Source: a virus. Taken from it: a stretch of DNA of 30,492 nucleotides. Below are positions 10,739 through 23,877 of the stretch, piece after piece (position 1 is the first letter of the stretch; every line of letters begins with the position of its first letter). The notes under the pieces are model-generated. The model was not told where the DNA came from, made no database searches, and saw nothing but the letters and a program-made list of their open reading frames with translations. The translations under genes and the position numbers were made by a program. The DNA lies in the IMG/VR virus record IMGVR_UViG_3300035698_003851, positions 1 to 30,492 of that record. One strand, given 5' to 3'.

Positions 10739-11737
10739 ATGAAAATATTAGGAATCATTCCGAAGAAAAGTGCTGTAACAACGTATAGAGTTATTAGACC
10801 ACTTGAAAAAATCGGAGGTAAAATAAGGTATTCACTGCTTAGAAAGAATGAAGAGATTAAGACAGAAGACCTAGCTGAACGACTAAAGAAACAAGGAGAT
10901 ATTTGGGTTGTCAAATATATTGAAGACCTAAAAACAGCCAACTTAATTGTCTGGATGAGAGACAAGGTTAAGTCTAAACTCGTTGTAGATATAGATGATA
11001 ATATTTGGCAGATACCTGATGATAGTATAGTTCTCAAAGACATGGAGGCTCACGCTAAACGTGGGATATATACGATTGAAATGATTCAGGTAGCAGACGC
11101 AGTAACAGTCTCGACAGAGCCAATGAAAGAATTGTTGAAGAAATTTAACAACACAATAGCAGTTATTCCAAACCTTATAGACCCAAAGGATTGGAAATTT
11201 AAACAGAAGAAGCATGATAAGGTTAGAATAGGATGGGTTTATTCACACACTCATTACCCTGATGTAAAGGTGATTAAAGATGCACTTAACAAGATACACG
11301 AAAAATACAAAGATAAAATAGAGATAGTTATCTTTGGTTCAGACTTACAAGTGTTTGATTTTAAACCAGAACATCACTGGGGAGTAAAGTTCGCAGAATA
11401 CCCAGAAAGACTTACAGAGTTATCATTTGATATTTCTATTTGTCCACTAGAAGATAATGCCTTTAATAGGTGTAAATCTAATATTAAGTGGATGGAGAGT
11501 TCAATGTCAGGTGCAGCAGTCGTAGCTAGTAAAGTCTACCCGTATGAATACTCAATAAAACAAGGAGAGACAGGATATATAGCAAGTACCACAGGACAGT
11601 GGGTTAAGCACCTTTCAAATCTAATAGAAAACGAAGACAAGAGAAAAGACCTTGTTGAAAACGCAAGAAAAGAAATCTTAGAAAAATACAACATAGATAA
11701 GAGTTATAATTGGGAAAAATTTTATAAATGCTTATGA
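10739..11737 (+). CDS. glycosyltransferase, GT-B fold (GT4-like)
   Basis: First gene of the glycan cassette, 332 residues. The N-terminal domain has MKILGIIPKKSAVTTYRVIR and the DIDDNIW block (84-90). The linker carries AVIPNLIDP (141-149). The C-terminal domain holds RIGWVYSHTHYPDV (about 163-176) and the donor-binding stretch NRCKSNIKWMESSMSGAAVV (about 243-262). These are the Rossmann-type halves of a GT4-like enzyme that moves a sugar from a nucleotide donor. It overlaps the following gene by 4 nt if the ATG at 11734 is used. The sugar and acceptor are unknown. Confidence 0.85.
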   Translation: MKILGIIPKKSAVTTYRVIRPLEKIGGKIRYSLLRKNEEIKTEDLAERLKKQGDIWVVKYIEDLKTANLIVWMRDKVKSKLVVDIDDNIWQIPDDSIVLKDMEAHAKRGIYTIEMIQVADAVTVSTEPMKELLKKFNNTIAVIPNLIDPKDWKFKQKKHDKVRIGWVYSHTHYPDVKVIKDALNKIHEKYKDKIEIVIFGSDLQVFDFKPEHHWGVKFAEYPERLTELSFDISICPLEDNAFNRCKSNIKWMESSMSGAAVVASKVYPYEYSIKQGETGYIASTTGQWVKHLSNLIENEDKRKDLVENARKEILEKYNIDKSYNWEKFYKCL

Positions 11738-12552
11738 ACGAAATCATATTAGTAACTGGGGGAACAGGATTCTTAGCAGAAGCCTTACTTCCGAAACTAA
11801 AAGGTAAGATTAGAGTTGTAGCAAGAAATGAGGGGAAACTCGTAAAACTAAAACAACAATATCCAGATATTGAAATTATAACTGGAGATATTGCTGACGA
11901 ATTTGTAGCCAAGAAGGTTATGAAAGGAGTGAAAGAAGTTTATCATTTAGCTGCAATGAAATCAGTTGATATAGCAGAGAACCAACCTTACGAATGTATA
12001 AAAACCAATATAACAGGAACACTCAACTTATTAGTTGAATCACTTAACGAAAGACCTAGTTTATTTATTCTTGTTTCTACAGACAAAGCAGCTCAAGTTA
12101 GTGGAGTGTATGGAGCTACTAAGTTCCTAGCAGAGAGACTAATGGGAGAGGTAGAGAAAATGAATGGAGAAACAGCCTACAGAGTAGTGAGATATGGAAA
12201 TGTTCTATATTCAACTGGTTCAGTATTACAAGTTTGGAAAGACAATATAGAAAAAAAGAAACCAGTTAAAATTACAGAACCTGAAATGACTAGATTCTTC
12301 TGGACAAAAGAACAAGCAGTAGACCTTATATTTGAATGTATTGAAAATGCTAAAAACTCAATGCCCTATATACCTGAAATGAAATCAATGCGAATGGGAG
12401 ACCTATTAGACGCTATGCTCAATAAGTATGGAACAGTTCCAATAGAGGTTATGGGAAACCGAGGTGGAGAGAATTTACATGAAACAATGGGAACAGTATT
12501 CTCAAACGAATGTGAACAATTTACGATAAAAGAAATACAAAAATTAATATGA
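11734..12552 (+). CDS. PseB/CapD-like UDP-sugar 4,6-dehydratase (SDR)
   Basis: This short-chain dehydrogenase/reductase would open a sugar-nucleotide pathway by oxidising and dehydrating a UDP-HexNAc. Seen are the NAD-binding VTGGTGF near the N-terminus, HLAAMKSVD (about 71-79), the catalytic STDKA-x5-VYGATK block (Y126, K130 counting from this start) and TRFFW (about 186-190). These are all marks of the FlaA1/PseB/CapD group. The ATG at 11728 gives two extra residues; 11734 is preferred because it makes a standard ATGA overlap. At 272 residues it is shorter than typical PseB (about 330), mainly at the C-terminus. The product could be a modified HexNAc used by the neighbouring transferases. 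Confidence 0.82.
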   Translation: MNEIILVTGGTGFLAEALLPKLKGKIRVVARNEGKLVKLKQQYPDIEIITGDIADEFVAKKVMKGVKEVYHLAAMKSVDIAENQPYECIKTNITGTLNLLVESLNERPSLFILVSTDKAAQVSGVYGATKFLAERLMGEVEKMNGETAYRVVRYGNVLYSTGSVLQVWKDNIEKKKPVKITEPEMTRFFWTKEQAVDLIFECIENAKNSMPYIPEMKSMRMGDLLDAMLNKYGTVPIEVMGNRGGENLHETMGTVFSNECEQFTIKEIQKLI

Positions 12553-13430
12553 AATTCTACGCCTACTGTATAAGAAAAGACATGCTTGATAGAAATGGAG
12601 GCTCAATAGTATTATGGCACCATGGACACGCACTAGAAGAACTAGGACACGAGTTTGGAGGAATGTTAGACCTTGAAGATACACCACCTAAAGATGCAGA
12701 CTTCTTAATGTTTCAATCAGAATGGTGGAGAGCTTTAAAGCTACATAAGAGACACACAAATGCTAAGTGGATTTGTTGGTTAGGGCACGTTAAGCCACAT
12801 AAAAAATACCAAATGCCACCAATACAGGAGATAGAAGCTGATTACTTTCATACTCAATGGCAAGGAAAACTATTCGGTTATGCTAGAGAAATGTTAGATA
12901 GGAAGGGAAAGGAATTATTTTATATGCCACACGGAGGTTGCAGTAAATGCAACACAGAGGGAACTAAAATAGATTGTACAAAGACCGTATTTATAGGAGC
13001 AGATTACCCAGAGAGAGCACAGGATTGGTTAGATTATTCAAAAGTTAATAAAATAACCTGTCCAGTAGAAGATGCTAAGAACTACTATAAGTCAGCATTG
13101 GTCTCACCAAATCTACACGGAGACTTCCAGAAAGATATGGTCACAGATTATACACAGATTCCAGGGAGAATGATTAATGATAGAATATTCAACGTAATAT
13201 TAAGTGGAGGATTTACAATTTCAGATAACGCACCAATAGTAAAAGAGTTCTTTGCACCAGATGAAATACCTTACGCAGAGACAAGAGCAGATTACCGTTC
13301 TATGATTAAGAAATTCACAGACTACCCAGATGAGAGACTTACTTATATGAAGAAAGCTAAAGCAAGAATCTTAAAAGAATATATGTACACTAATTATTGG
13401 AAAGAGTTTTTAAAAACAATATGCGACTAA
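12549..13430 (+). CDS. glycosyltransferase of CgeB-like type
   Basis: This 293-residue protein has the C-terminal pattern of CgeB/Glyco_trans_1_2 transferases: DYTQIPGRMINDRIFNVILSGG, then APIVKEFFAPDEIPYAE and YRSMIKKFTDYPDERLTYMK, ending in YTNYWKEFL. The N-terminal half carries WHHGHALEELGHEF and a small cysteine cluster, CSKCNTEGTKIDC (about 130-143). It overlaps the dehydratase gene by 4 nt and the next gene by 10 nt. It likely adds a sugar to the glycan built by this cassette. Donor and acceptor are unknown. Confidence 0.8.
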   Translation: MKFYAYCIRKDMLDRNGGSIVLWHHGHALEELGHEFGGMLDLEDTPPKDADFLMFQSEWWRALKLHKRHTNAKWICWLGHVKPHKKYQMPPIQEIEADYFHTQWQGKLFGYAREMLDRKGKELFYMPHGGCSKCNTEGTKIDCTKTVFIGADYPERAQDWLDYSKVNKITCPVEDAKNYYKSALVSPNLHGDFQKDMVTDYTQIPGRMINDRIFNVILSGGFTISDNAPIVKEFFAPDEIPYAETRADYRSMIKKFTDYPDERLTYMKKAKARILKEYMYTNYWKEFLKTICD

Positions 13431-13858
13431 TATTAGGAGAAGGACCAGGTAGCCAACCAGAGGGAGATAAAATAAGAATAGATGTAGTTCCAGCTTGGGC
13501 TGACATTATAGCAGATATTAATGAAGGACTACCGAAATTAGAAGGACAATTTGATTACATAGAAGCTCACCATATATTTGAACACATAGAGAGTGGGAGA
13601 GTTTTAAAAGGAATACTAAATGACTTATATGACTTACTAACAGTTGGAGGAAAGTTTGATATAACAGTTCCTTATTGGCACAGCGAATCAGCAGTTGAAT
13701 GTATAGAGCACTGTAGATTCTTTAATGAAAGTTCGTTCATGAACTTCTACGAGAATCCTTATGGAAAAGAAATGGGAATGAAACAGTTTAATTTAGTTTC
13801 AAACACAATAGAGGAAGTAGGACAACATAAACAAGTTCACGTTATATTAACTAAATGA
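13421..13858 (+). CDS. small SAM-dependent methyltransferase
   Basis: A 145-residue class I Rossmann protein. LILGEGPGSQPEGDKIRID (about 3-21) is motif I with the acidic ribose-binding residue. FDYIEAHHIFEHIE (about 44-57) is the motif II/IV region, and LLTVGGKFDITVPY (about 73-86) is the post-motif strand. No DNA-methylase signature is seen, so a small-molecule or sugar O- or N-methyltransferase is more likely, which fits the cassette. An upstream ATG at 13397 gives eight more residues, but the conserved motif starts right after 13421, which yields a 10-nt overlap with the previous gene. Confidence 0.75.
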   Translation: MRLILGEGPGSQPEGDKIRIDVVPAWADIIADINEGLPKLEGQFDYIEAHHIFEHIESGRVLKGILNDLYDLLTVGGKFDITVPYWHSESAVECIEHCRFFNESSFMNFYENPYGKEMGMKQFNLVSNTIEEVGQHKQVHVILTK

Positions 13859-14148
13859 TTTGGTTGTTAGTTGCTCACCATATAGCAGACGTAGCATTTC
13901 AGCCTAGTTGGTTGATAAAGAATAAATCTAAGTATTGGTGGAGTGTGTATGAACATAGTTTTATTTGGGCTGGTTGTATAAGTTTAGTTCTTTTAATTCA
14001 AGACAAATATAGTTTAGAAAAATTTGTATTCTTACTGGTAGGACATTTCATAATTGATTTCGTTAAGTATAGATATCTCAAGAATTGGAATTGGATATAT
14101 TTAGACCAATCATTACATTATCTACAAATATTATGCGTATTGTATTAA
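13855..14148 (+). CDS. DUF3307-like small membrane protein
   Basis: Ninety-seven residues with hydrophobic segments at about 1-15, 34-50 and 56-74. The AHHIADVAFQPSWLIKNK start and the GHFIIDFVKYR then DQSLH blocks match the DUF3307 layout (a histidine/aspartate pair in the first helix, then 'H-IID' and 'DQ-H'). The function of that family is not established. It is the first member of a three-gene set (membrane protein, CTP-transferase, LicD protein) that occurs twice in this cassette. It overlaps its neighbours by 4 nt and 16 nt. Confidence 0.65.
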   Translation: MIWLLVAHHIADVAFQPSWLIKNKSKYWWSVYEHSFIWAGCISLVLLIQDKYSLEKFVFLLVGHFIIDFVKYRYLKNWNWIYLDQSLHYLQILCVLY

Positions 14149-14540
14149 CAGCATCAGTGATGGATTTATTCCATGAAGGGCATATAAATCTTCTAAAGGA
14201 AATGAGAAAGAATGGAGACTTGGTGTTAGTAGTATTGCACGATGGGTTCACTACATTTGATAATAAAAAGAAGCTACCGATAGAAAACTTAGAAAAGAGA
14301 ACAAGAAACTTAATTGATTCAGGGCTAGTAGATATTATCCGATATACATTTGAAAAAGAACCGATACAAGCTTTCAAAAAGATAATAGAAGACTACCATA
14401 ACTTTGACTTATTATTTATTAGAGCAAATGACTGGGAAGATTTCCCTGGAAAGAGAATTATAATAGAAAATAATATACCAATAAAATATATAGATTACAC
14501 AAAAAACATATCAAGTTCTAAATTAAGAAATGAAATATAA
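14133..14540 (+). CDS. CTP-transferase, TagD-like, copy 1
   Basis: A 135-residue nucleotidyltransferase of the HxGH superfamily. It has TASVMDLFHEGHINLL with HEGH at residues 14-17 and a C-terminal NISSSKLRNEI, equivalent to the 'ISTT-I' CTP-binding motif. Relatives (TagD, glycerol-3-phosphate cytidylyltransferase) make CDP-alcohols that donate a phospho-group. The 14085 ATG in the same frame would add 16 residues but overlaps the membrane gene further, so 14133 is preferred. It ends sharing one base with the LicD start (TAATG). The alcohol or phosphate substrate is unknown. Confidence 0.8.
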   Translation: MRIVLTASVMDLFHEGHINLLKEMRKNGDLVLVVLHDGFTTFDNKKKLPIENLEKRTRNLIDSGLVDIIRYTFEKEPIQAFKKIIEDYHNFDLLFIRANDWEDFPGKRIIIENNIPIKYIDYTKNISSSKLRNEI

Positions 14541-15085
14541 TGTTAAACTCAGAAATACATAACAATCCAAAAGTAAAAAACTTCAGAAAGAAAGCACACT
14601 TAGATATAAGAGATATAGACGAAATTTTAAAGAATAACGGAGTAGAGTATTTCCTTTCTGCTGGAACAATGCTCGGTGCAGTAAGAGATGGAGATTTTAT
14701 AGAATACGATTTTGATATAGATTTATGCTCAATGGAGTATCCGACAAATGAAATTAGGTTAAAATTAGTTAGTGATTTCAGAGTAGCTGGGTTTGAGACA
14801 GAACCACAGGACTCAAAAGAATCAGGAAGAATTAAAATAAAAAGAAATGTCGAAACTGATATACATTTTTTTCAGAAAGAAGGAAGACTAGCAATGTGTA
14901 AAGTTTGGGAGAAGCCATTATTTTCAATACCGTTAGAATATATACAGTTAAATAAAGCTAAATTAGGAAACTTTGAGTATAATGTGATTAGTGAAGAATA
15001 CCTAAAAAGTGTTTATAAAGACTGGAGAACTCCAATGAATAAAGAATATTTCAATGATGATTATTATTATTTTGAAACACAATAA
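14540..15085 (+). CDS. LicD-family phosphotransferase, copy 1
   Basis: This 181-residue protein moves a phospho-group, such as phosphocholine or a related unit, from a CDP donor to a glycan. It shows the family signature YFLSAGTMLGAVRDGDFI (about 37-54) with the metal-binding acidic cluster YDFDIDL (D57, D59, D61). Near the C-terminus it has EEYLKSVYKDWRTPMNKEY, the usual LicD end. It is paired directly with the preceding CTP-transferase, which would make its donor. The stop and next start share TAATG. Confidence 0.85.
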   Translation: MLNSEIHNNPKVKNFRKKAHLDIRDIDEILKNNGVEYFLSAGTMLGAVRDGDFIEYDFDIDLCSMEYPTNEIRLKLVSDFRVAGFETEPQDSKESGRIKIKRNVETDIHFFQKEGRLAMCKVWEKPLFSIPLEYIQLNKAKLGNFEYNVISEEYLKSVYKDWRTPMNKEYFNDDYYYFETQ

Positions 15086-15471
15086 TGGATTCACATAAAA
15101 GGTCAATATTAAAAAGTGTTATTTGGAGAATACTAGGAGTAATAATTCTAGCTTCAATAACCTACGCATTTACAAGAAGTTTAATCACAACAAGTATAGT
15201 AACGTTTATACACCACGCAACTTTTTTATTAGTATTTTACCTACACGAAAGATTTTGGTTAAAGATTAAATTAGAAGGAAGACGAAGAAAGGTCATAAAA
15301 GCCCTTGTTTACGAGGTTATACTGGGTATGGGAATAGGAGGATTTATAGTTCTAATGGTAACTGGAAGCTGGTCAAGAGTATCAGAGATTACACTAACCT
15401 ACACAGCAGTTAAATTAATAACATATTATATTTACGAAACATTATGGACAAGAAAATCTACGCTTATGTAG
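15085..15471 (+). CDS. tandem DUF2061-like membrane protein
   Basis: This 128-residue integral membrane protein is built from two copies of the DUF2061 layout. The first reads KSVIWRILGVIILASITYAF and ends FYLHERFW (about 10-60). The second reads KALVYEVILGMGIGGFIVLM and ends YYIYETLW (about 71-121). DUF2061 is a membrane domain of unknown function. Two copies in one chain form an internal duplication of four helices. It sits between the first LicD gene and the second CTP-transferase, as the membrane partner of the second three-gene set. Confidence 0.75.
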   Translation: MDSHKRSILKSVIWRILGVIILASITYAFTRSLITTSIVTFIHHATFLLVFYLHERFWLKIKLEGRRRKVIKALVYEVILGMGIGGFIVLMVTGSWSRVSEITLTYTAVKLITYYIYETLWTRKSTLM

Positions 15472-15890
15472 TTGCTGACATTTTTCATATAGGACACTTA
15501 AGATTTTTAGAGAAAGCATCTAAACTTGGCACTCTAACAGTTGGAGTGCTAACTGACGAAGCAACGATGGAAAAAAAGCCGAAGCCAATAATACCATTTG
15601 AGGAAAGACTAAAAATTATAAAAGCACTGAAGTTTGTTAATAGAGCAGTACCACAGCATACATATAGTCCAAATAAGAATGTTAATAAATATAAACCAGA
15701 TATTTTAATAGAGAGCACGAGTCACATAGAGGTGGGGAGCAATCCATTTGGAAAAGTAAAAATACTAAAATATTATGATAACCAAAGCTCAACAAGAATC
15801 AAAAATAAAGTGGCTAGAAGATTTAAAAAAAGTGCAGGAACCAATTTGGTTACTTGGTGGAACACTTTTAGGAGCCATACGGGATGGTGA
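15444..15890 (+). CDS. CTP-transferase, HIGH-motif, copy 2
   Basis: A 148-residue nucleotidyltransferase. YVVADIFHIGHLRFLEKA carries HIGH at residues 15-18. It is followed by VGVLTDEATMEKKPKPIIPF (about 33-52) and FEERLKIIKALKFVNR, then SSTRIKNK near 115-122 as the CTP-binding end. This pattern resembles CTP-transferases linked to phosphonate or choline activation more than TagD, so copies 1 and 2 may use different substrates. The final 38 codons overlap the next gene, and the conserved fold appears to end before that stretch. It overlaps the DUF2061 gene by 28 nt. Confidence 0.8.
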   Translation: MDKKIYAYVVADIFHIGHLRFLEKASKLGTLTVGVLTDEATMEKKPKPIIPFEERLKIIKALKFVNRAVPQHTYSPNKNVNKYKPDILIESTSHIEVGSNPFGKVKILKYYDNQSSTRIKNKVARRFKKSAGTNLVTWWNTFRSHTGW

Positions 15891-16266
15891 ATTTATAGCA
15901 AATGATACAGATATAGACTTGGGAATGTTTTATGATGAAGGAGATTATGATTTACATTATGGTTCACATCCATCAACACCAGACCAAGCAAGAATAAATA
16001 TACAAAAGTTTATAAAAATAGGAGATAGGTGGTGGCACCCACACAACTTGCACGGAGATTGTTGGGCACTACAGACACCTTTGAGTGGAGAATTTACAAT
16101 AGCAAGGTTACACGGAATAGAGTTTAAGGTTCCATTAGAATATGAGGAATTATTAGATGATTGGTATGGTGATTGGAAAACACCAATGCCACAATCACAA
16201 AAGTTTAGAGAGGTTAAATTAAATAATTACACTTATTCAAATGATATCAGCATTAGTAACAGCTAA
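15775..16266 (+). CDS. LicD-family phosphotransferase, copy 2
   Basis: A 163-residue protein whose signature IWLLGGTLLGAIRDGEFI (about 24-41) is followed by NDTDIDLGMF with acidic residues D44, D46 and D48. It is shorter than copy 1 and ends in LDDWYGDWKTPMPQSQKF, the expected C-terminal motif. The ATG at 15775 gives a 116-nt overlap with the preceding CTP-transferase. A start inside 15891 would remove the GGT motif, so the overlap must be real or the sequence holds an error. It pairs with the second CTP-transferase. Confidence 0.8.
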   Translation: MITKAQQESKIKWLEDLKKVQEPIWLLGGTLLGAIRDGEFIANDTDIDLGMFYDEGDYDLHYGSHPSTPDQARINIQKFIKIGDRWWHPHNLHGDCWALQTPLSGEFTIARLHGIEFKVPLEYEELLDDWYGDWKTPMPQSQKFREVKLNNYTYSNDISISNS

Positions 16267-17692
16267 AAATGAAGAACTATTTATTAAAGGATGTATAGAA
16301 AGGGTTTTGCCTTATGTAGAAGAAGTTATTTTTGTAGATAATGGCTCAACAGATAAGACAAGAGAAATAGTAGAGAGTTTAAAAAATGACAAGATAAAAA
16401 TATTTAATTATCCTGAAACAGACAATCAAGGTGAATTAAGACAATTTAGTTTAGACCAAGCCACACAAGAGTGGATATGGCAAATAGATGCAGATGAGTG
16501 GTACCCAGAAGATGCCTGTCTAAAGATAGTTGATAAAATAAAAAATCCAGGAGAGGCTCTTAGCTTTAGAGTAGCTTATCACCAACTTAGTTGGAGAGAT
16601 GGGTTTAAACAAGCTGACTTTGAACATTACCCAGACAGACTTTATAAGCGAGAGGTAATTGATAGATATGATGGCATGTTACCAAACGACATGACTAAGG
16701 TTAAGCCAGAATTTTATAAACATAGACCATTTTTAGAATACGATAACAGAAATGATGAAACACACGAGAACGGAAAGCAACCAATATTAAGAACTGTATT
16801 TTACTATCACCTAGCAAGAACTAGGGGATATAATTATGAGTTTAATAAGTGGTTTAGATACAATCAAATCATGCACCCTAATTGGGGTGAGGATATGATA
16901 GCTGACACAGCAAGACAAAATGGATGGGTAAGTGGATTATATAGTTTAGATAAAATAGAAGTACCGTTTGAAATACCAAAGGCACCTGCAAAGGTTTCAG
17001 TTGTTATTCCAAATTTTCAATATAGAGATTATGTCGGTAAAGCAATAGAAAGCTGTCAGAATCAAACAGTACCACCCCACGAAATTATAGTAGTAGATGA
17101 TGGAAGTCACGATGACTCAAGAGCAGTTATTTCACAGTATGATGTTAAATTAATATGCACACCTAATTATGGAGTAGCCTGTGCAAGAAACGAAGGAGGT
17201 AAGAACGCTAATGGAGATTATGTAATCTTCTTAGATGCTGATGACGAATTAGAACCTGACTTTATAGAAAAGACCACTAAGGAAATGAAAGGAGATATAC
17301 AAGTAGTTTATACAGATTACAAGACGATAGGAGACCAAGAAGTACTCGTAGCAGAGCCAGACTTTAGTTCAGAAGAACTTAAGAAAGGACAGATTATCCC
17401 ATCAACAATGGCTTTAATTGATAGACACATTTGGGAGTTAAATGGAGGATTCGACAATATGGAACACTACGAAGATTGGGGATTCTGGTTAAGAACAGAT
17501 AAGAATGGATTTAACTTTAAACACATTAAAGAACCACTAGCGAGATACAGGATTCATGGGGTTAGTAGAATAGCATTATTGGATTCAAATATGATAGAAG
17601 GGTATAAACAGCTTAAAGAAAGGTATAATATTACTAGAGAAGTTGATATTAATAGATTAAATGAAGCAACAAGAATATGGGAAGGAAAATAG
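16241..17692 (+). CDS. two-domain family 2 glycosyltransferase
   Basis: A 483-residue protein with two GT-A domains. Domain 1 starts MISALVTAKNEELFIKGCIE and has FVDNGSTDKT (about 31-40) and the DxD-like QIDADEW (about 80-86). Domain 2 starts near residue 247 with KVSVVIPNFQYRDYVGKAIE and has VVDDGSHDDS and the DxD-like FLDADDE (about 329-335). The last part (about 395-440) has HYEDWGFWLR and LARYRIHG, typical of GT2 chain ends. Such doubled GT2 proteins build glycan chains with two linkages. It overlaps its neighbours by 26 nt and 16 nt. Confidence 0.88.
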   Translation: MISALVTAKNEELFIKGCIERVLPYVEEVIFVDNGSTDKTREIVESLKNDKIKIFNYPETDNQGELRQFSLDQATQEWIWQIDADEWYPEDACLKIVDKIKNPGEALSFRVAYHQLSWRDGFKQADFEHYPDRLYKREVIDRYDGMLPNDMTKVKPEFYKHRPFLEYDNRNDETHENGKQPILRTVFYYHLARTRGYNYEFNKWFRYNQIMHPNWGEDMIADTARQNGWVSGLYSLDKIEVPFEIPKAPAKVSVVIPNFQYRDYVGKAIESCQNQTVPPHEIIVVDDGSHDDSRAVISQYDVKLICTPNYGVACARNEGGKNANGDYVIFLDADDELEPDFIEKTTKEMKGDIQVVYTDYKTIGDQEVLVAEPDFSSEELKKGQIIPSTMALIDRHIWELNGGFDNMEHYEDWGFWLRTDKNGFNFKHIKEPLARYRIHGVSRIALLDSNMIEGYKQLKERYNITREVDINRLNEATRIWEGK

Positions 17693-18597
17693 CTTATGTA
17701 ATGGATTTAGTAATAGTATGTGGTGGAGTTCTAATAGCATTTGAACACTGCCAAAGACTAAGAGAGAAAGGTATAGATGCCTTTGTCATAGGTAATGGTG
17801 CACCACTAGGAGAGTATGACGTACCAGTATATAAAATGAGTAAGCTAGAAGAATTTACAGATGACGACATTATAGTTTCAGTTTGGTACCCACAGGTCTC
17901 GTTTCTAGAACAATTTAAGGGAAGAAAGATTCAGTTCTCACAGGACTGCATAGAAGAATGTGGAGTAGGAGCTCAAGCCGTAGAAGATTGTAGAGTAGCA
18001 AGAAGAGCTAAGGGATGGGAGATAATGGCTGTATCAGATTACGCAGGTCAATGGACAGGTTGTGATTATACAGTAATCCCCAACGCAATAAGCGAAAGAT
18101 TTTTTATAAAAACTAACGTAAAAAGAGATTTAGATATTTTAATAGAAGGAACACCAGAAGGAAATAAGGGAACCCTAGATGCACTTGAGATAGCACAGTC
18201 AATTCCTAAACTAAAGATAGGATGGTTGGGTAGAGAAACTCTTAAGGGAGACTGGGAGCTATTCACAAACGCACCAAGAGAGATTATACCAGAAATTTAC
18301 CAAAGAGCTAAAGTTGTTATTAAGTGTTCTAAGTCAGAAGGATTTGGATTACCACACTTGGAAGCAATGGCTAGTGGATGTATACTCTTAACCTATGACA
18401 GTGGAGGAAATGACTTCTGTATAGATGAAGTAAATTGCTATAAAGGAGACAAGGAATACTTAACGAAACGACTAGCAGACGTGATAGTAGGTGGTTATGG
18501 AAAAGAGTTAATAACAAATGGATATAAAACAGCCGAGAAGTATCGGCAGAATATAGATAAATTAATAAAATATTATGAACGTAGCATCACTGCTTAG
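17677..18597 (+). CDS. glycosyltransferase, GT4-like
   Basis: Last enzyme of the cassette, 306 residues with a GT-B fold. The N-terminus MGRKIAYVMDLVIVCGGVLI and the CQRLREKG helix form the acceptor half. The C-terminal half carries KVVIKCSKSEGFGLPHLEAM (about 210-229) and ASGCILLTYDSGGNDFCIDE, with the E-x7-E type donor-binding glutamates of GT4 enzymes. The C-terminal helix is basic. It overlaps the adaptor gene by 23 nt, so the cassette runs directly into the structural genes. The sugar is unknown. Confidence 0.85.
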   Translation: MGRKIAYVMDLVIVCGGVLIAFEHCQRLREKGIDAFVIGNGAPLGEYDVPVYKMSKLEEFTDDDIIVSVWYPQVSFLEQFKGRKIQFSQDCIEECGVGAQAVEDCRVARRAKGWEIMAVSDYAGQWTGCDYTVIPNAISERFFIKTNVKRDLDILIEGTPEGNKGTLDALEIAQSIPKLKIGWLGRETLKGDWELFTNAPREIIPEIYQRAKVVIKCSKSEGFGLPHLEAMASGCILLTYDSGGNDFCIDEVNCYKGDKEYLTKRLADVIVGGYGKELITNGYKTAEKYRQNIDKLIKYYERSITA

Positions 18598-19285
18598 TAA
18601 AGCATATCGCATAACAAACACTTCGGCAACCACAATGTTGGATGGAAATTCAACAAATGTACTGGCTGATTTAAACACGTCTTATGGGCATAGAACCCTA
18701 AAGATTCTAGGAGTCCGACAAGACATTAATCACGCTATTGAGGAGTCTTATACTGACCTAATAGACACAACTAGCTTAGTAGCTGGAGATAATGGTTACA
18801 ACGGAGAGTATGCTTTTCCAACAGACCTTATGCGACCAGTTAGAGCAGAGGTATCTTTTGACGGATTGACTTGGAGACCTTGTGAAATTTATGACATAAA
18901 TGATAATCGTAAATCAGAATTTGATGATGTTAATAACAACTTCACAACTGATAGACCTTATGTAAGATTTTCAAGAAATTCTTATTTTGTTAGACCTTTA
19001 CTTGAAAGTGGTTCAGACGTTACTGGTGGTATTCATATTTGGTATGAGAAACGACAAGACGACATGACTACTGGAAGCCCTGATATGGAAGCTAACCTAC
19101 ATGATGTATTAGCTTATGACTTAGCTGAACTAGAAGTATTAATGCACTCAGACAGATACGACCAAGGATGGAAGTCAGCTTTCTACAAAAAGAAGAATGA
19201 CGTAGATAGGATTTTCGATGAGTTTTACAAAAACCGTTTTAAGAGAACTATGACACTTAGGTCTCAAAAAGAAAATTATAAGTAA
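18575..19285 (+). CDS. head-tail adaptor (T7 gp11-like position)
   Basis: A 236-residue protein that probably joins the portal ring to the tail nozzle. The start MNVASLLSKAYRITNT, the central YAFPTDLMRPVRAEVSFDG (about 75-93) and the C-terminal HDVLAYDLAELEVLMHSDRY helix followed by FDEFYKNRF are usual in adaptor proteins of short-tailed phages. Support also comes from order: it precedes the tail proteins and follows the portal-scaffold-coat set. The start codon lies inside the glycosyltransferase gene. Family assignment is by layout, not a motif match. Confidence 0.65.
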   Translation: MNVASLLSKAYRITNTSATTMLDGNSTNVLADLNTSYGHRTLKILGVRQDINHAIEESYTDLIDTTSLVAGDNGYNGEYAFPTDLMRPVRAEVSFDGLTWRPCEIYDINDNRKSEFDDVNNNFTTDRPYVRFSRNSYFVRPLLESGSDVTGGIHIWYEKRQDDMTTGSPDMEANLHDVLAYDLAELEVLMHSDRYDQGWKSAFYKKKNDVDRIFDEFYKNRFKRTMTLRSQKENYK

Positions 19286-19299
19286 ATTAAATAAATAAT

Positions 19300-19713
19300 A
19301 TGGCTATATCATTTAGCAAAGTAAATAGTTTCGTCGAAAATCTAGCTGAAAAGCAAATCGACCTTAGTGGAGCAGCATTAACTATTGCTCTAACAAACAC
19401 AGCTCACACCGCAACGTGGGATGAACTAGCAGACCTTACAGAGATTAGTTATACAAATTTATCTGCAAGAGTTCTAACAGTAACTACTTCAAGTCAAACA
19501 ACTGGAACTTATAAATTAGTTCTAGCTGACAAGACTCTAACAGCATCAGGAGGTGCAGTAGCAGAGTTTAGATACATCTATATTTATGATGACGACTCAA
19601 CAGGAGATAAATTGATTGGATATTATGACTATGGTTCAGCAGTAACAATGGAAGACGGAGATACATTCATTCTCGACTTTGACGCAAGTGCAGGAGTAAT
19701 TACTTTAGCATAA
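19300..19713 (+). CDS. small beta-rich virion protein
   Basis: A 137-residue, strand-rich, Thr/Ser/Asp-heavy protein with conserved-looking blocks: LTIALTNTAHTATWDELADL, TEISYTNLSARVLTVTTSSQ, TLTASGGAVAEFRYIYIYDD and LIGYYDYGSAVTMEDGDTF. I know similar sequences in many uncultivated and cultured phages as structural proteins without a firm name. They may be decoration or tail components. It is a monomer-like jelly-roll candidate between the adaptor and the LamG protein. No enzymatic motif. Confidence 0.65.
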   Translation: MAISFSKVNSFVENLAEKQIDLSGAALTIALTNTAHTATWDELADLTEISYTNLSARVLTVTTSSQTTGTYKLVLADKTLTASGGAVAEFRYIYIYDDDSTGDKLIGYYDYGSAVTMEDGDTFILDFDASAGVITLA

Positions 19714-19716
19714 AAA

Positions 19717-21366
19717 ATGTCAGCAGAAATATTTAACACAGAATTATATACTAAAAGAGAGTCTAACGAGCTTTATACTCTTGACCTTTTTGATGATGCA
19801 AACTTACAAGGATATTGGAGGATGGAAAGTAATGTAGAGGATTCTAGCGATAATAGTTATGACTTAACTACTTCTGGTTCTCCAGCCTACGCTACTGGTA
19901 AATTTGGAAATGGGATTGACTTAGAAAATGGTTCTTCACAATTCGCCTATATTATCAATGGTAGTTCTGCAAATTTAAACACAACTGGAAGCAGGTCAGT
20001 ATCTTGTTGGATTAAACTAGAATCTTATATAGATGGAGCTTATATAATTGGTAAAGACGGAGCAACTACTGGATGGTTTTTATACTTAGGTAGTGGTGGA
20101 GATAACCCAGGATTTTATATTAGAGGATTGACTGTATCGGGAACTGAATCAACTCCATCAGTGCCATTAGGTAAATGGACTCACATTGTTGGAGTTTACG
20201 ATGCTAGTGCTAGTAAAATAAAAGTTTTTGTAAATAATACTAAAGTTGAAGTCGATACAGTTGGAGGTTCAAGTGCTAATAATACTTTAGATACTACGAT
20301 TGGAGCTAAAGCAGGAACAGGCGGAGCTGGAACATCACTTTGGTTAGATGGAATGATAGATGACTTAGCTTTCTTCGACAGAGCTTTAACAGACGCTGAA
20401 GTAGAATCAATATATGGTTCAGGATTACAGGCTTATTGGAGATTTGAGAGTGGAGCAGACACTACCGATTCATCAAGCAATTCTAATACTCTTACTCACG
20501 TAAACACTCCAACTAATGAATCTGGAAAGTTTGGTAATTGTATGCATTATGACCCAGGTAGCACAGAATATTCTTATACTGCTGATAGTGCCTCGTTATC
20601 TTTAACAGGACAATTTACTATTTCTTGTTGGGTAAATATGGATTCTTTACCAGCATCAGACGACAGTTATATGCAGGTTGTTGATAAATATCATTATGAT
20701 GGTGGAACTGGTGCAACTTCTGGATATTTTATTGATTTCAATAGAGAAGCTGGTGGAAATCAAAGAATTAGAGCTGTTTTTGCCTATAATCCAGGAATAC
20801 ACACTGTTGCTGCTTCTTATAGCACAACTCTATCAACTGGAGCTTGGCATCATTTAGTAGCAAGGCATAATGGAACTTTAATGGAATTATGGCTTGATGG
20901 GGTATCTGTTGCAAACACAAGTTCTTCTGGTTTAAACCCTAGTGATAATTCAGAGAACTTAGCGATAGGAAGACTTCAAGGTTCTGCCGGTAGATATTTA
21001 GATGGAAAAGTAGATGACGTCGATATATTTGATAGAGCTTTAACAGATGCAGAGGTAGGATATCTTTACGCTAACGATGCTTATAAACCTGAATTATCAG
21101 TAGGAGCATTTATACTTACAGGAATAGACATTTTAATAACTCGTTCAATAATGGCAGCTTTAGCTGTAGGTGCTTTCACGCTAACTGGTATAGATATTCT
21201 ATTTCACAGAGGTAAAGCATTAGCAGCAGGAGTAGGAAGCTTTGCCCTAACAGGGATAGATATTATAGCTAAGTTTAGTGGTATCTCATGGTTCAAAATA
21301 AAAAAACCAACAACAACTTATAATAAAGTAGATAAACCAACTACAATCTGGACAGATGTAGATTAA
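19717..21366 (+). CDS. LamG-domain tail or surface adhesin
   Basis: This 549-residue protein has two concanavalin/LamG-type domains, about 30-235 and 238-455. Each begins with YWRMES or YWRFES and ends with a matching block, FFDRALTDAEVESIYG or IFDRALTDAEVGYLYA, so they arose by duplication. A short tail follows with three copies of a G-x-F-x-LTGID unit (about 460-520), then WFKIKKPTTTYNKVDKPTTI as a terminal Thr/Lys stretch. LamG domains bind sugars, so this is a likely receptor-binding or decoration protein. It is followed 4 nt later by the propeller protein. Confidence 0.85.
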   Translation: MSAEIFNTELYTKRESNELYTLDLFDDANLQGYWRMESNVEDSSDNSYDLTTSGSPAYATGKFGNGIDLENGSSQFAYIINGSSANLNTTGSRSVSCWIKLESYIDGAYIIGKDGATTGWFLYLGSGGDNPGFYIRGLTVSGTESTPSVPLGKWTHIVGVYDASASKIKVFVNNTKVEVDTVGGSSANNTLDTTIGAKAGTGGAGTSLWLDGMIDDLAFFDRALTDAEVESIYGSGLQAYWRFESGADTTDSSSNSNTLTHVNTPTNESGKFGNCMHYDPGSTEYSYTADSASLSLTGQFTISCWVNMDSLPASDDSYMQVVDKYHYDGGTGATSGYFIDFNREAGGNQRIRAVFAYNPGIHTVAASYSTTLSTGAWHHLVARHNGTLMELWLDGVSVANTSSSGLNPSDNSENLAIGRLQGSAGRYLDGKVDDVDIFDRALTDAEVGYLYANDAYKPELSVGAFILTGIDILITRSIMAALAVGAFTLTGIDILFHRGKALAAGVGSFALTGIDIIAKFSGISWFKIKKPTTTYNKVDKPTTIWTDVD

Positions 21367-21370
21367 ATAT

Positions 21371-22666
21371 ATGATATATAATGATTTTTACAAAGGAATA
21401 GCAAAATCTAAGTTCGATGTCAATGGCTTCGATAACTTAGTTAATTGTGATGTCCATACGGAACTAGGTTCTATAAGACCTCAGTTAGCTTTGGCTAGTG
21501 AGTCTACAACACCTGATGAAGCCTGTATCGAACTAACAACCACAAATGGAACGGCTTTGTTTTTTTCAACAGAGTCTGGTAAGATATGGAAACGAACAAC
21601 TGCTGGAGTTTACTCATTAGTTCACACTAATGGAAATGGTGCTCATGCAGGTGCTAATATATATGACGGAATAGTTTACTATGCAACTACTACAAAACTT
21701 GGAAAACAAACTGAGGCCTTGGCTTTATCAGAAGCTTCTTGGAGTTCAGAAACAGATTCATTCGCTACTTTCACTAATGGTGGAACATATAAACCATCCT
21801 GTGTTGTCGGCTCTGGGCTTTATTGGGGTGATGACAATTTGGTTGCTGTGGTGGATGCTGCTGGTGATTTTACTGCTGATGTCCTCGACTTAGCTAAAGA
21901 ATATTCAATCTCAGCTCTTACAGGAGTTAGAAATGACCTTTTGATAGGAATACAGATTGGTGCTAATGTACCAACTTGCAGAGTCTTTTTATGGGATAGA
22001 GTATCTCCTGCTTTTAATTTGGAAGATATTATACCTGAAAATGGAGTCAACTGTTTTATAGATGGAGATAATATTACTTTTGCACAATGTGGTTCAAGTG
22101 GAAATGTTTATTACTGGGATGGTGGAAAGATGGGATTATTTAAAAAGATTAGAGGAGTTACAACAGAAGTAAACTCTTACGCCTCATCTGTGATAAATGG
22201 AAGACCATTATTTGGAACTGGCACTAAGGTATTTTCAATACATAGAAGTGATAAAGACACACCTTATTGCATAGTTCAAGAATATACAGTATCAACTGGA
22301 ACGATAGCTTCGCTAGGAAACTATGGTTCAACACTATTAGTTTCTAATGGAACTGGAGTAGATGCTACAGGAAGTGCTTATGCTACTGCTACTATAAATA
22401 CACCAGAGCTTCAAGATGGAGCTAATTCAGTTAAGGTAGCTTATGACCAATATCCAACAGGAATAGGTATCGCTACTAAGGTAGATGCTGCTTCAAGTTT
22501 TACAGCTCAGACACCTATAGTAGATGCAGTTAAAAAGTTAGTAGGATTTAATGGAGGATTAGGAAATACTAATACTGTTCAAACACAGATTACGCTTACA
22601 CCTGTATCAGTTGGTTCACCAGCAACTTTATACCCGCCAATAATTAAAGCTATAGAAAATAAATGA
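21371..22666 (+). CDS. beta-propeller tail protein (nozzle-like)
   Basis: A 431-residue strand-rich protein with repeating short blades (GTALFFSTESGKIWKRTTAG, YWGDDNLVAVVDAAGDFTAD, NVYYWDGGKMGLFKKIRG), typical of a propeller platform. The N-terminus MIYNDFYKGIAKSKFDVNGF resembles nozzle proteins of T7-like phages that start with a membrane- or portal-docking tail. In T7 this place is held by gp12 (tubular B). The stop overlaps the next start by 4 nt (ATGA). The identity rests on fold pattern and position. Confidence 0.65.
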   Translation: MIYNDFYKGIAKSKFDVNGFDNLVNCDVHTELGSIRPQLALASESTTPDEACIELTTTNGTALFFSTESGKIWKRTTAGVYSLVHTNGNGAHAGANIYDGIVYYATTTKLGKQTEALALSEASWSSETDSFATFTNGGTYKPSCVVGSGLYWGDDNLVAVVDAAGDFTADVLDLAKEYSISALTGVRNDLLIGIQIGANVPTCRVFLWDRVSPAFNLEDIIPENGVNCFIDGDNITFAQCGSSGNVYYWDGGKMGLFKKIRGVTTEVNSYASSVINGRPLFGTGTKVFSIHRSDKDTPYCIVQEYTVSTGTIASLGNYGSTLLVSNGTGVDATGSAYATATINTPELQDGANSVKVAYDQYPTGIGIATKVDAASSFTAQTPIVDAVKKLVGFNGGLGNTNTVQTQITLTPVSVGSPATLYPPIIKAIENK

Positions 22667-23877
22667 TAGATTTAGAATCACAACCAATGATAACGTCAGT
22701 ACCAGAGAATGATATTCAAAGACTGTCAAATCTTAGGTATTTAAGAGTGGGAATGGGAGAAGAAGTTTTTGCTATCGATATAAATCAAGGAATGTTTTTA
22801 GGAGCTTCTAACTACGCTGACGCACCATTCAAGGTAGACTTCGATGGAAAGCTAACAGCTTCAACTGGTACTTTTTCTGGAGATGTAAAGGTAGGAAAAA
22901 CAAGTTATGCTTCAACTACTGCTGGATTCTGGCTAGGAACTGACTCTGGGTCTGGTAAATTTCATATAGGTTCTTCTGCAACAAAGTATATAAAATACGA
23001 TGGAACAGATTTAACAATGGTTGGTGGAACAATAACTGGTTCAACAATACAAACAATTTTACCTGCTTCTGGAACTAAGAGTTCTGTAGTTATAGAGGGA
23101 GGAAGCGACGAAATTATTCAATTTTATTATGATGCAACTTTAAGAGGATATATTAGAGGATATACAACTGAGGGTTCTGAAGTAACTTACATTGAAATTG
23201 AAGCTGAATCTGGTAGAAGTATTAAACTTAAAAATAGTTTTGTTGAGATTAATGGAGATTTATTACCTAAGGATGATAATGATAAAACATGTGGAGCTTA
23301 TAATCTTAGATGGAGTGATGGAAGATTTGAAGATATAACAGTAGATGATTTAACTGTAAATACAGGTTGCTCTGGTTGTGGATATAAAGAACTTAATTTA
23401 TTATCAGAAAATCAAAAGAATTTTTTATTGACTGGAGCTGATAGAGAAATCCCTAAGAAAGAGATTGATGATAGAGCAAAAAAAGACAAAATACTAGATG
23501 GAGATGCTAAAATAAAGATAAGAAATGAAGATAAACAAAATCATAAAAAGACTAATATAACAGGATTCCTCATTGGGGATGTATTGGCTTGGGGAGAGAA
23601 TGGATTGCAAAAATGCGACATAGATGCTTGTCACTGCGTTGTCGGAGTAGCCGACAAAAGAGGTGTACCAACTGTGTTGGGAGCTGAACCAGTTAAAGTA
23701 ATTGGAAAAGTATTAAGAAATCAATTTTTAGTTGGAAGTACAACAGCAGGTTGTGCTAGAGCTTGGGATATTTCAATAGAAGGACAGCCCAAGGTAGGGT
23801 CAATTATCGCAATGGCAATGGAAGATAAGAATAGTAATTCAATAGGAAGTATAAAAGCTATGATACAAAAATGTTAA
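22663..23877 (+). CDS. tail fibre-type protein with Cys-rich C-terminus
   Basis: A 404-residue protein. The N-terminus (MIDLESQPMITSVPENDIQR) is followed by a fibre-like region with repeated short strands (ASTGTFSGDVKVGKTSY, TMVGGTITGSTI). A helical charged stretch (about 262-295) precedes a C-terminal domain of FLIGDVLAWGENGLQKCDID and then CHCVVGVADKRGVPTVLG, PVKVIGKVLRNQFLVGS and GSIIAMAMEDKNSNSIGSIK. This C-terminal order is like the autoproteolytic or chaperone ends of phage fibres (peptidase G2-like), but no catalytic residue can be named. Several cysteines (GCSGCG, KCDIDACHC, GCAR) are unusual for a fibre. Confidence 0.7.
   Translation: MIDLESQPMITSVPENDIQRLSNLRYLRVGMGEEVFAIDINQGMFLGASNYADAPFKVDFDGKLTASTGTFSGDVKVGKTSYASTTAGFWLGTDSGSGKFHIGSSATKYIKYDGTDLTMVGGTITGSTIQTILPASGTKSSVVIEGGSDEIIQFYYDATLRGYIRGYTTEGSEVTYIEIEAESGRSIKLKNSFVEINGDLLPKDDNDKTCGAYNLRWSDGRFEDITVDDLTVNTGCSGCGYKELNLLSENQKNFLLTGADREIPKKEIDDRAKKDKILDGDAKIKIRNEDKQNHKKTNITGFLIGDVLAWGENGLQKCDIDACHCVVGVADKRGVPTVLGAEPVKVIGKVLRNQFLVGSTTAGCARAWDISIEGQPKVGSIIAMAMEDKNSNSIGSIKAMIQKC

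Follow-up and report, generated by a model that had tools for sequence, protein, structure and literature searches.

The complete 30,492-base virus record IMGVR_UViG_3300035698_003851, analysed here at its full length and termed the window, carries two different three-gene modules, each encoding a small membrane protein, a cytidylyltransferase (CTP1 and CTP2) and a LicD-family phosphotransferase (LicD1 and LicD2). We propose that each module would constitute a cytidine diphosphate (CDP)-donor line for one phospho-substituent, with the membrane protein feeding or docking the enzyme that makes the donor; for this reading as a whole, we estimate a probability of about 0.6. An earlier interpretation of the DNA letters (the sequence-only reading) had placed six such genes in this order and at this position, and all of them were recovered on the + strand in the middle of a glycan-biosynthesis island, with tight or overlapping junctions and with scores above curated Pfam cut-offs. 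Module 1 comprises a DUF3307 membrane protein of 97 amino acids (13855-14148, +; PF11750, 43.7 bits against a cut-off of 23, E = 3.4e-11; phrog_2470, 3.1e-16), the cytidylyltransferase-like CTP1 of 135 amino acids (14133-14540, +; PF01467, 37.0 bits against 21, 4.8e-9; motifs HEGH and SSSKLR), which starts at the ATG at 14133 inside the end of the DUF3307 gene, and LicD1 of 181 amino acids (14540-15085, +; PF04991, 32.2 bits against 22.6, 1.5e-7; GTMLGAVRDG...DFDIDL and TDIHF). Module 2 consists of a four-helix membrane protein of 128 amino acids with a double DUF2061 (15085-15471, +; PF09834 in two stretches, 55.1 bits against 23.1, 1e-14), CTP2 of 148 amino acids (15444-15890, +; PF01467, 49.7 bits against 21, 5.5e-13; HIGH, ESTSH, YSPNKN and SSTRIK) and LicD2 of 163 amino acids (15775-16266, +; PF04991, 36.2 bits against 22.6, 8.9e-9; GTLLGAIRDG...DTDIDL). 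The end of CTP2 and the start of LicD2 share 116 bp out of frame (15775-15890), whereas a gap of 220 bp separates their homologues in a related viral locus, L014; the arrangement in the window is either a long functional overlap or the result of a late deletion that extended CTP2.

Although the two modules agree in their three functional classes and in gene order, as would be expected of a recent tandem duplication, such an origin has practically no chance of being correct, and we reject it on four grounds. The membrane proteins are members of unrelated families (DUF3307 and double DUF2061); CTP1 and CTP2 share ~25% identity, and LicD1 and LicD2 ~31%; CTP1 and CTP2 fall on separate tree branches, with all 42 DUF2061-paired enzymes on one side (98% support in the Shimodaira-Hasegawa-like approximate likelihood-ratio test, SH-aLRT); and each module occurs alone in relatives. 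L014 holds module 2 alone, in the order found in the window (PolysSyn2, glycosyltransferase, methyltransferase, DUF2061, CTP2, LicD2, GT2 and GT1), and module 1 of the window lies precisely between the methyltransferase and DUF2061 genes of that order. In another relative, L061, module 1 occurs alone, as CTP1, DUF3307 and LicD in that order, flanked by capsid and adaptor genes; the L061 DUF3307 homologue is 60% identical to that of the window and adjoins the CTP1 and LicD homologues, and the two CTP1 proteins are 51% identical. Since L014 carries only module 2 and L061 only module 1, the modules are separable cassettes and, judging from these sequence comparisons, were acquired separately. Moreover, LicD2 groups with the L014 LicD (97% SH-aLRT) and LicD1 with that of a DUF2061 locus, L025 (88% support)—a placement suggesting that LicD genes may have been exchanged between modules. 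The sequence-only reading was thus right that the two pairs differ and are not recent copies, and the three-gene set does recur in relatives, in variable order; its description of one module occurring twice in tandem gives way to that of two distinct modules.

To place module 2 in a broader context, viral contigs were scanned with a DUF2061 alignment, which yielded 47 loci, 44 of them distinct when the window is included. All 43 distinct loci with a double DUF2061, each found by DUF2061 alone, have a cytidylyltransferase from a single clade no more than 620 bp away; L060, a locus with a single-repeat DUF2061, is without the enzyme. Across the 44 loci, the two genes are fused (7 cases) or at most 60 bp apart in 36, with the enzyme upstream of DUF2061 in 26 and downstream in 10. 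They are fused or immediate neighbours in 37 of 43 loci, compared with 5.2 expected from chance placement within the loci, and their distance matrices correlate (r 0.45), a value reached by none of 5000 permutations (best 0.16). Gene order and fusion changed repeatedly over the tree—well-supported branches require at least three switches between fused and unfused states—while the pair was kept. A reverse scan with the cytidylyltransferase alignment recovered 60 distinct loci, 48 of them with DUF2061 (6 fused, 42 within 1 kb). Taken together, these genomic patterns make it very probable that DUF2061 and the cytidylyltransferase form a genuine functional pair. The earlier claim that a small membrane protein goes with the enzymes is thereby strongly supported for DUF2061 by fusions, adjacency in 43 of 43 loci and correlated divergence, and for DUF3307 it is repeated in L061 only. 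A widespread pairing of DUF3307 with the cytidylyltransferase was not borne out: distant DUF3307 genes (L066-L070, Enterococcus phage iF6) have other neighbours. Single-sequence viral scans with CTP1 gave no matches. By analogy with module 2 and one relative, DUF3307 may play a corresponding role in module 1. Among isolated phages, tblastn returned no good double DUF2061 and only distant relatives of the cytidylyltransferases, and a pattern scan of cellular genomes returned four loci only, none with a double DUF2061 of the type paired with the enzyme.

Both cytidylyltransferases of the window exceed the PF01467 cut-off and keep the HxGH motif, as the sequence-only reading had claimed, and a motif audit of the family found HxGH and ESxxH each in 41 of 42 enzymes. 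Against TIGR01518 (glycerol-3-phosphate cytidylyltransferase; equivalog cut-off 165.4 bits), CTP1 and CTP2 score 47.2 and 42.3 bits, and against TIGR02199 (HldE/RfaE domain II; cut-off 181.5) 43.8 and 54.4 bits; by these curated cut-offs, they are neither TagD nor HldE equivalogs. A model of the natural fusion in L046 (74 rows; predicted local distance difference test score, pLDDT, 93.5; predicted template modelling score, pTM, 0.77) shows four long helices and, C-terminal to them, a nucleotidyltransferase domain, which is nearest to the cytidylyltransferase domain of Fom1 (5x3d; Z 20.0, root-mean-square deviation 1.2 Å over 119 residues) and next to TagD (Z 19.1), with HldC lower by Z though within 2 units. 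This order of folds bears on an alternative in which the enzymes would be HldE/RfaE-like makers of adenosine diphosphate (ADP)- or CDP-sugars for ordinary glycans and the LicD genes would belong to an unrelated step. Such a role would agree with rfaE_dom_II being the best NCBIfam model for CTP2 and with many loci being general sugar islands; however, the scores lie far below the HldE cut-off, the fold is closer to Fom1 and TagD than to HldC, if only within those 2 units, and a LicD gene directly adjoins the enzyme in many loci, and we regard the alternative as improbable. Separately, cytidylyltransferases of the same family are fused to a methyltransferase domain in L044 (8809-9798), L166 (3929-5116) and L170 (3926-5125), and in L036 (6867-7835) a NUMOD3-bearing stretch, possibly a homing endonuclease remnant, stands in frame ahead of the enzyme.

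The PF04991 match spans only ~30 profile residues in LicD1 and LicD2. The three aspartates of the D..D.D motif and an arginine are invariant in all 29 neighbouring LicD proteins, including both copies in the window and that of L061, and LicD1 has a candidate third acidic residue downstream (TDIHF). The LicD profile matches FKRP, a ribitol-phosphate transferase (6kaj; E = 1.8e-13, over 283-434), and the likeness covers the nucleotidyltransferase-fold domain with D..D.D; unlike that enzyme, the phage proteins are short (163-181 amino acids). A LicD gene occurs within 1.5 kb in 26 of the 44 DUF2061 loci. In L048 (6347-7604), a tandem pair of LicD genes was observed beside a single pair of cytidylyltransferase and DUF2061 genes.

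On this basis, the cytidylyltransferase would form CDP-X by coupling cytidine monophosphate (CMP) to X-P, a small phosphate or phosphonate; LicD would then transfer X-P from CDP-X onto a glycan built by the neighbouring glycosyltransferases. Homology makes CDP-X synthesis and LicD transfer probable, the latter step following from family membership. The small membrane protein would be a dedicated partner of the cytidylyltransferase. For module 2, both the N and C termini of the double DUF2061 would be cytosolic, and the enzyme would be held at the cytosolic face, covalently in some relatives; DUF2061 would import or capture an anionic precursor at the inner membrane and pass it on, much as LicB provides LicA and LicC with choline, except that here the precursor would arrive already phosphorylated, because no kinase turned up in the scanned genes of the island. 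We infer the use of cytidine triphosphate (CTP) rather than adenosine triphosphate (ATP), the CDP-X product, the LicD transfer and the import alike. Candidates for X may include glycerol-3-phosphate, other alditol phosphates, amine phosphates and phosphonates; as a clue to the substrate, the island gene content offers general sugar, methyl and radical S-adenosylmethionine genes only among its top families. The decorated target may be the host surface or the virion: the capsid gene precedes the island in L025, L061 and the window, and the only capsid match in L014 lies far from the island. The earlier interpretation, in which each module would activate and attach a different phospho-substituent, is partly supported: there are two different modules, with catalytic motifs kept in the cytidylyltransferases and the LicD proteins.

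Evidence on what the membrane partner might do comes from two relatives, L106 and L175, in which the gene directly after the cytidylyltransferase encodes an OPA-type (GlpT-like organophosphate) transporter and DUF2061 is missing. These transporters match GlpT (1pw4; 9.5e-15 and 1.3e-16), and at E up to 1e-3 they match no solved structures other than GlpT and SLC37 sugar-phosphate exchangers; TIGR00881 is the top NCBIfam model, and glpT, UhpC and PgtP also lead, below their equivalog cut-offs. The two transporters are 70% identical, whereas the adjoining cytidylyltransferases share 41% identity and are placed in different parts of the tree, that of L106 being 58% identical to the enzyme of the window. 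No record checked has both DUF2061 and an OPA transporter: 11 records without DUF2061 near the enzyme also lack it everywhere else in their available sequence, and 25 records with DUF2061 lack such a transporter, although records may be fragments. Because a GlpT-like transporter takes the same slot and cellular DUF2061 goes with sulfate activation (see below), we prefer an importer over a flippase: the sequence-only suggestion of an assisting membrane protein is retained as a partner of the enzyme that feeds or docks it, and its flippase-like option is considered less likely. Precursor import by DUF2061, as deduced from this substitution and the sulfate link, has in our view slightly less than an even chance. 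We also observed a row of genes for adenosine 5'-phosphosulfate (APS) kinase, cytidylyltransferase and OPA transporter in L175 (3513-5582), joining the sulfate and phospho-donor contexts. In L161 (3648-3995) and L008 (3030-3374), a different membrane protein of 115 amino acids with an invariant K-V-R-R..S.RDVS segment occupies the DUF2061 slot; its likeness to SemiSWEET is faint (E 0.2-2), a hint only.

Structurally, the DUF2061 protein of the window is modelled by AlphaFold2 as four long helices (pLDDT 91.0), and PF09834 is matched at E up to 0.05 by 43 of 43 relatives. The charge distribution gives the two termini and the middle loop a cytosolic location (family means of 3.1, 5.9 and 2.6 K/R, against ~1 on the other side). 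Ten charged or histidine positions are kept in at least 93% of the 43 proteins, seven of them in the cytosolic half; helix 2 contains H43 and H44, and helix 4 contains K110; a conserved set of this kind within helices argues for a candidate functional site rather than a bare anchor. Identities as a PACE exporter or as Kiwa KwaA were tried and rejected, as the weak matches were lost or stayed below the cut-off with deeper profiles. Beyond phages, DUF2061 occurs in bacteria and archaea, and its function was not found in the open-access literature that names the family, as far as those texts could be consulted. In Desulfobacterota, a single DUF2061 is fused to APS kinase in L077 (1474-2193), L080 (955-1698) and L085 (937-1683; Pfam, E values of 8e-46, 1e-53 and 5e-38 for the APS kinase fusions) and, judged by eye, in L092, and it is fused to APS kinase or adjoins genes for ATP-sulfurylase, APS kinase or PAPS_reduct-domain proteins in L074-L076 and L086 as well. 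DUF2061 and sulfate-activation genes could possibly make up a sulfate uptake or docking module. On a plasmid of Mesorhizobium huakuii (L099, 3983-4216), DUF2061 lies between a sulfotransferase gene and cysD/cysN, next to nodC and nodI, making it a candidate part of Nod-factor sulfation.

The same observations have to be weighed against the view that the membrane protein is a mere anchor that transports nothing and only keeps the cytidylyltransferase, and LicD by way of that enzyme, at the membrane site of lipid-linked glycan assembly. The natural fusion, which puts the enzyme at the cytosolic C terminus, and the nod cluster, which groups DUF2061 with a glycan sulfotransferase and the enzymes supplying its donor, would both suit an anchor, as would the lack of a transporter fold match. 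However, the conserved charged and histidine positions, the GlpT-like transporter in the same slot in two relatives, and the presence of cellular copies also beside PAPS_reduct-domain genes, whose products are seemingly soluble assimilation enzymes, all speak for more than tethering, and we consider a pure anchor unlikely. A broader generalization would make DUF2061 a minimal oxyanion importer family that docks on the enzyme activating its cargo, turning sulfate into 3'-phosphoadenosine 5'-phosphosulfate (PAPS) in bacteria and organophosphates or phosphonates into CDP-X in phages. We put this forward tentatively, as an idea with perhaps one chance in three. If it holds, the phage fusion would unite importer and activator in a single chain, and with such units phages would obtain their own precursor for glycan decoration.

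Several observations weigh against a CDP-donor line fed or docked by its membrane partner. The full DUF3307 set is repeated in one relative only (L061), two loci in all. Because adjacent pairs served as seeds for the two-way searches, sampling favours that lineage; in the reverse scan, a minority of the cytidylyltransferase family has no membrane partner in reach. The third acidic residue is shifted or lost in LicD2 and its L014 counterpart (KIGDRWW and RIGDYRY). Only two loci are OPA-linked, and a common origin of their cytidylyltransferases is not formally rejected (approximately unbiased test, p 0.064). Searches of DUF2061 against solved transporter folds found no match (the highest Z, 6.9, was for a helical protein that is unrelated; Foldseek gave nothing below 0.6); the PACE efflux transporter model NF033664 scores 17.1 bits against a cut-off of 80, with 3 of 43 members matching at E up to 0.05; and no donor-making neighbour was seen beside DUF2061 in Phaeobacter and Halobellus. 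Finally, no LicD was detected within 1.5 kb in 18 of the 44 DUF2061 loci. As the pairing persists there, the membrane protein might itself use CDP-X, moving X-P onto a lipid such as undecaprenyl phosphate, or might flip the product, LicD acting later or being optional. The largely cytosolic position of the conserved charged cluster would accord with such a step, and archaeal IPCT-DIPPS (4mnd), a cytidylyltransferase joined to a membrane CDP-user, offers a precedent; a match of DUF2061 to 4mnd in the fold search was discarded as noise (E 4.2). Against this, profile and fold searches detected no relation of DUF2061 to CDP-alcohol phosphotransferases or known flippases, and its bacterial homologues serve sulfate activation, in which no lipid step is known. 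We give the lipid-directed role a poor chance and retain the feeding or docking partner.

Among known systems, the proposed donor line resembles lic1 of Haemophilus and pneumococcus, whose genes run licB-licA-licC-licD, with roles described for each and LicB described as a choline transporter (PMC7368946): in both, a membrane uptake protein and a cytidylyltransferase go with a LicD transferase that decorates a surface glycan with a phospho-group (PMC7368946). Unlike lic1, however, the phage enzymes match PF01467 (TagD/Fom1/HldC fold), the membrane partner is of another family and is fused to the enzyme in relatives, and a scan of genes in 10739-23877 revealed neither choline kinase nor a LicB-type permease, which leaves room for either in the rest of the genome or in the host. 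The phage set is thus likened to CDP-activated phospho-substituent systems without being assigned to lic1. TagD/TarD shares the fold seen in the L046 fusion, HxGH and a C-terminal S[ST]T.IK motif with the phage enzymes, which differ in scoring below the TIGR01518 cut-off; we know of no membrane partner of TagD. A TarB/TarL-like neighbour was also observed in L026 (8347-9771), where the transferase part is joined to a methyltransferase part beside a cytidylyltransferase/DUF2061 pair without LicD. Fom1, which makes a CMP-phosphonate, has the fold closest to that of the fused relative, but its domain is joined to a phosphoenolpyruvate (PEP) mutase domain, and no PEP mutase was found among the phage genes scanned. 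The bacterial DUF2061-APS kinase fusions and nodPQ/sulfotransferase clusters likewise have DUF2061 joined to or beside the enzyme for an activated donor, with a glycan sulfotransferase also present in the Mesorhizobium cluster; they differ in that DUF2061 is single, the donor is PAPS and the group moved is sulfate. A search of the accessible literature found no description of such a phage module. Our analysis gives a testable role to DUF2061, a membrane family of unknown function, and suggests that phages from the environment possess self-sufficient gene sets by which phospho-groups would be put on glycans, the membrane component being attached to the activating enzyme. Under the importer reading, uptake and activation would be coupled in one small unit, for sulfate and phospho-substituents alike.

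The island itself (10739-18597) lies downstream of the terminase, portal and capsid genes, with the capsid gene before it and an SU10-type adaptor gene at its end (Pfam). Its left arm (10739-13858, +; Pfam) encodes a GT4-type glycosyltransferase, a PseB/FnlA-like uridine diphosphate N-acetylglucosamine (UDP-GlcNAc) dehydratase, which matches NCBIfam PseB at 1.3e-53 but below that model's cut-off, a Glyco_trans_1_2 protein and a methyltransferase. The right arm (16241-18597, +) encodes a double GT2 glycosyltransferase (PF00535, 9.5e-53) and a GT4-type glycosyltransferase (PF00534, 5.6e-11).

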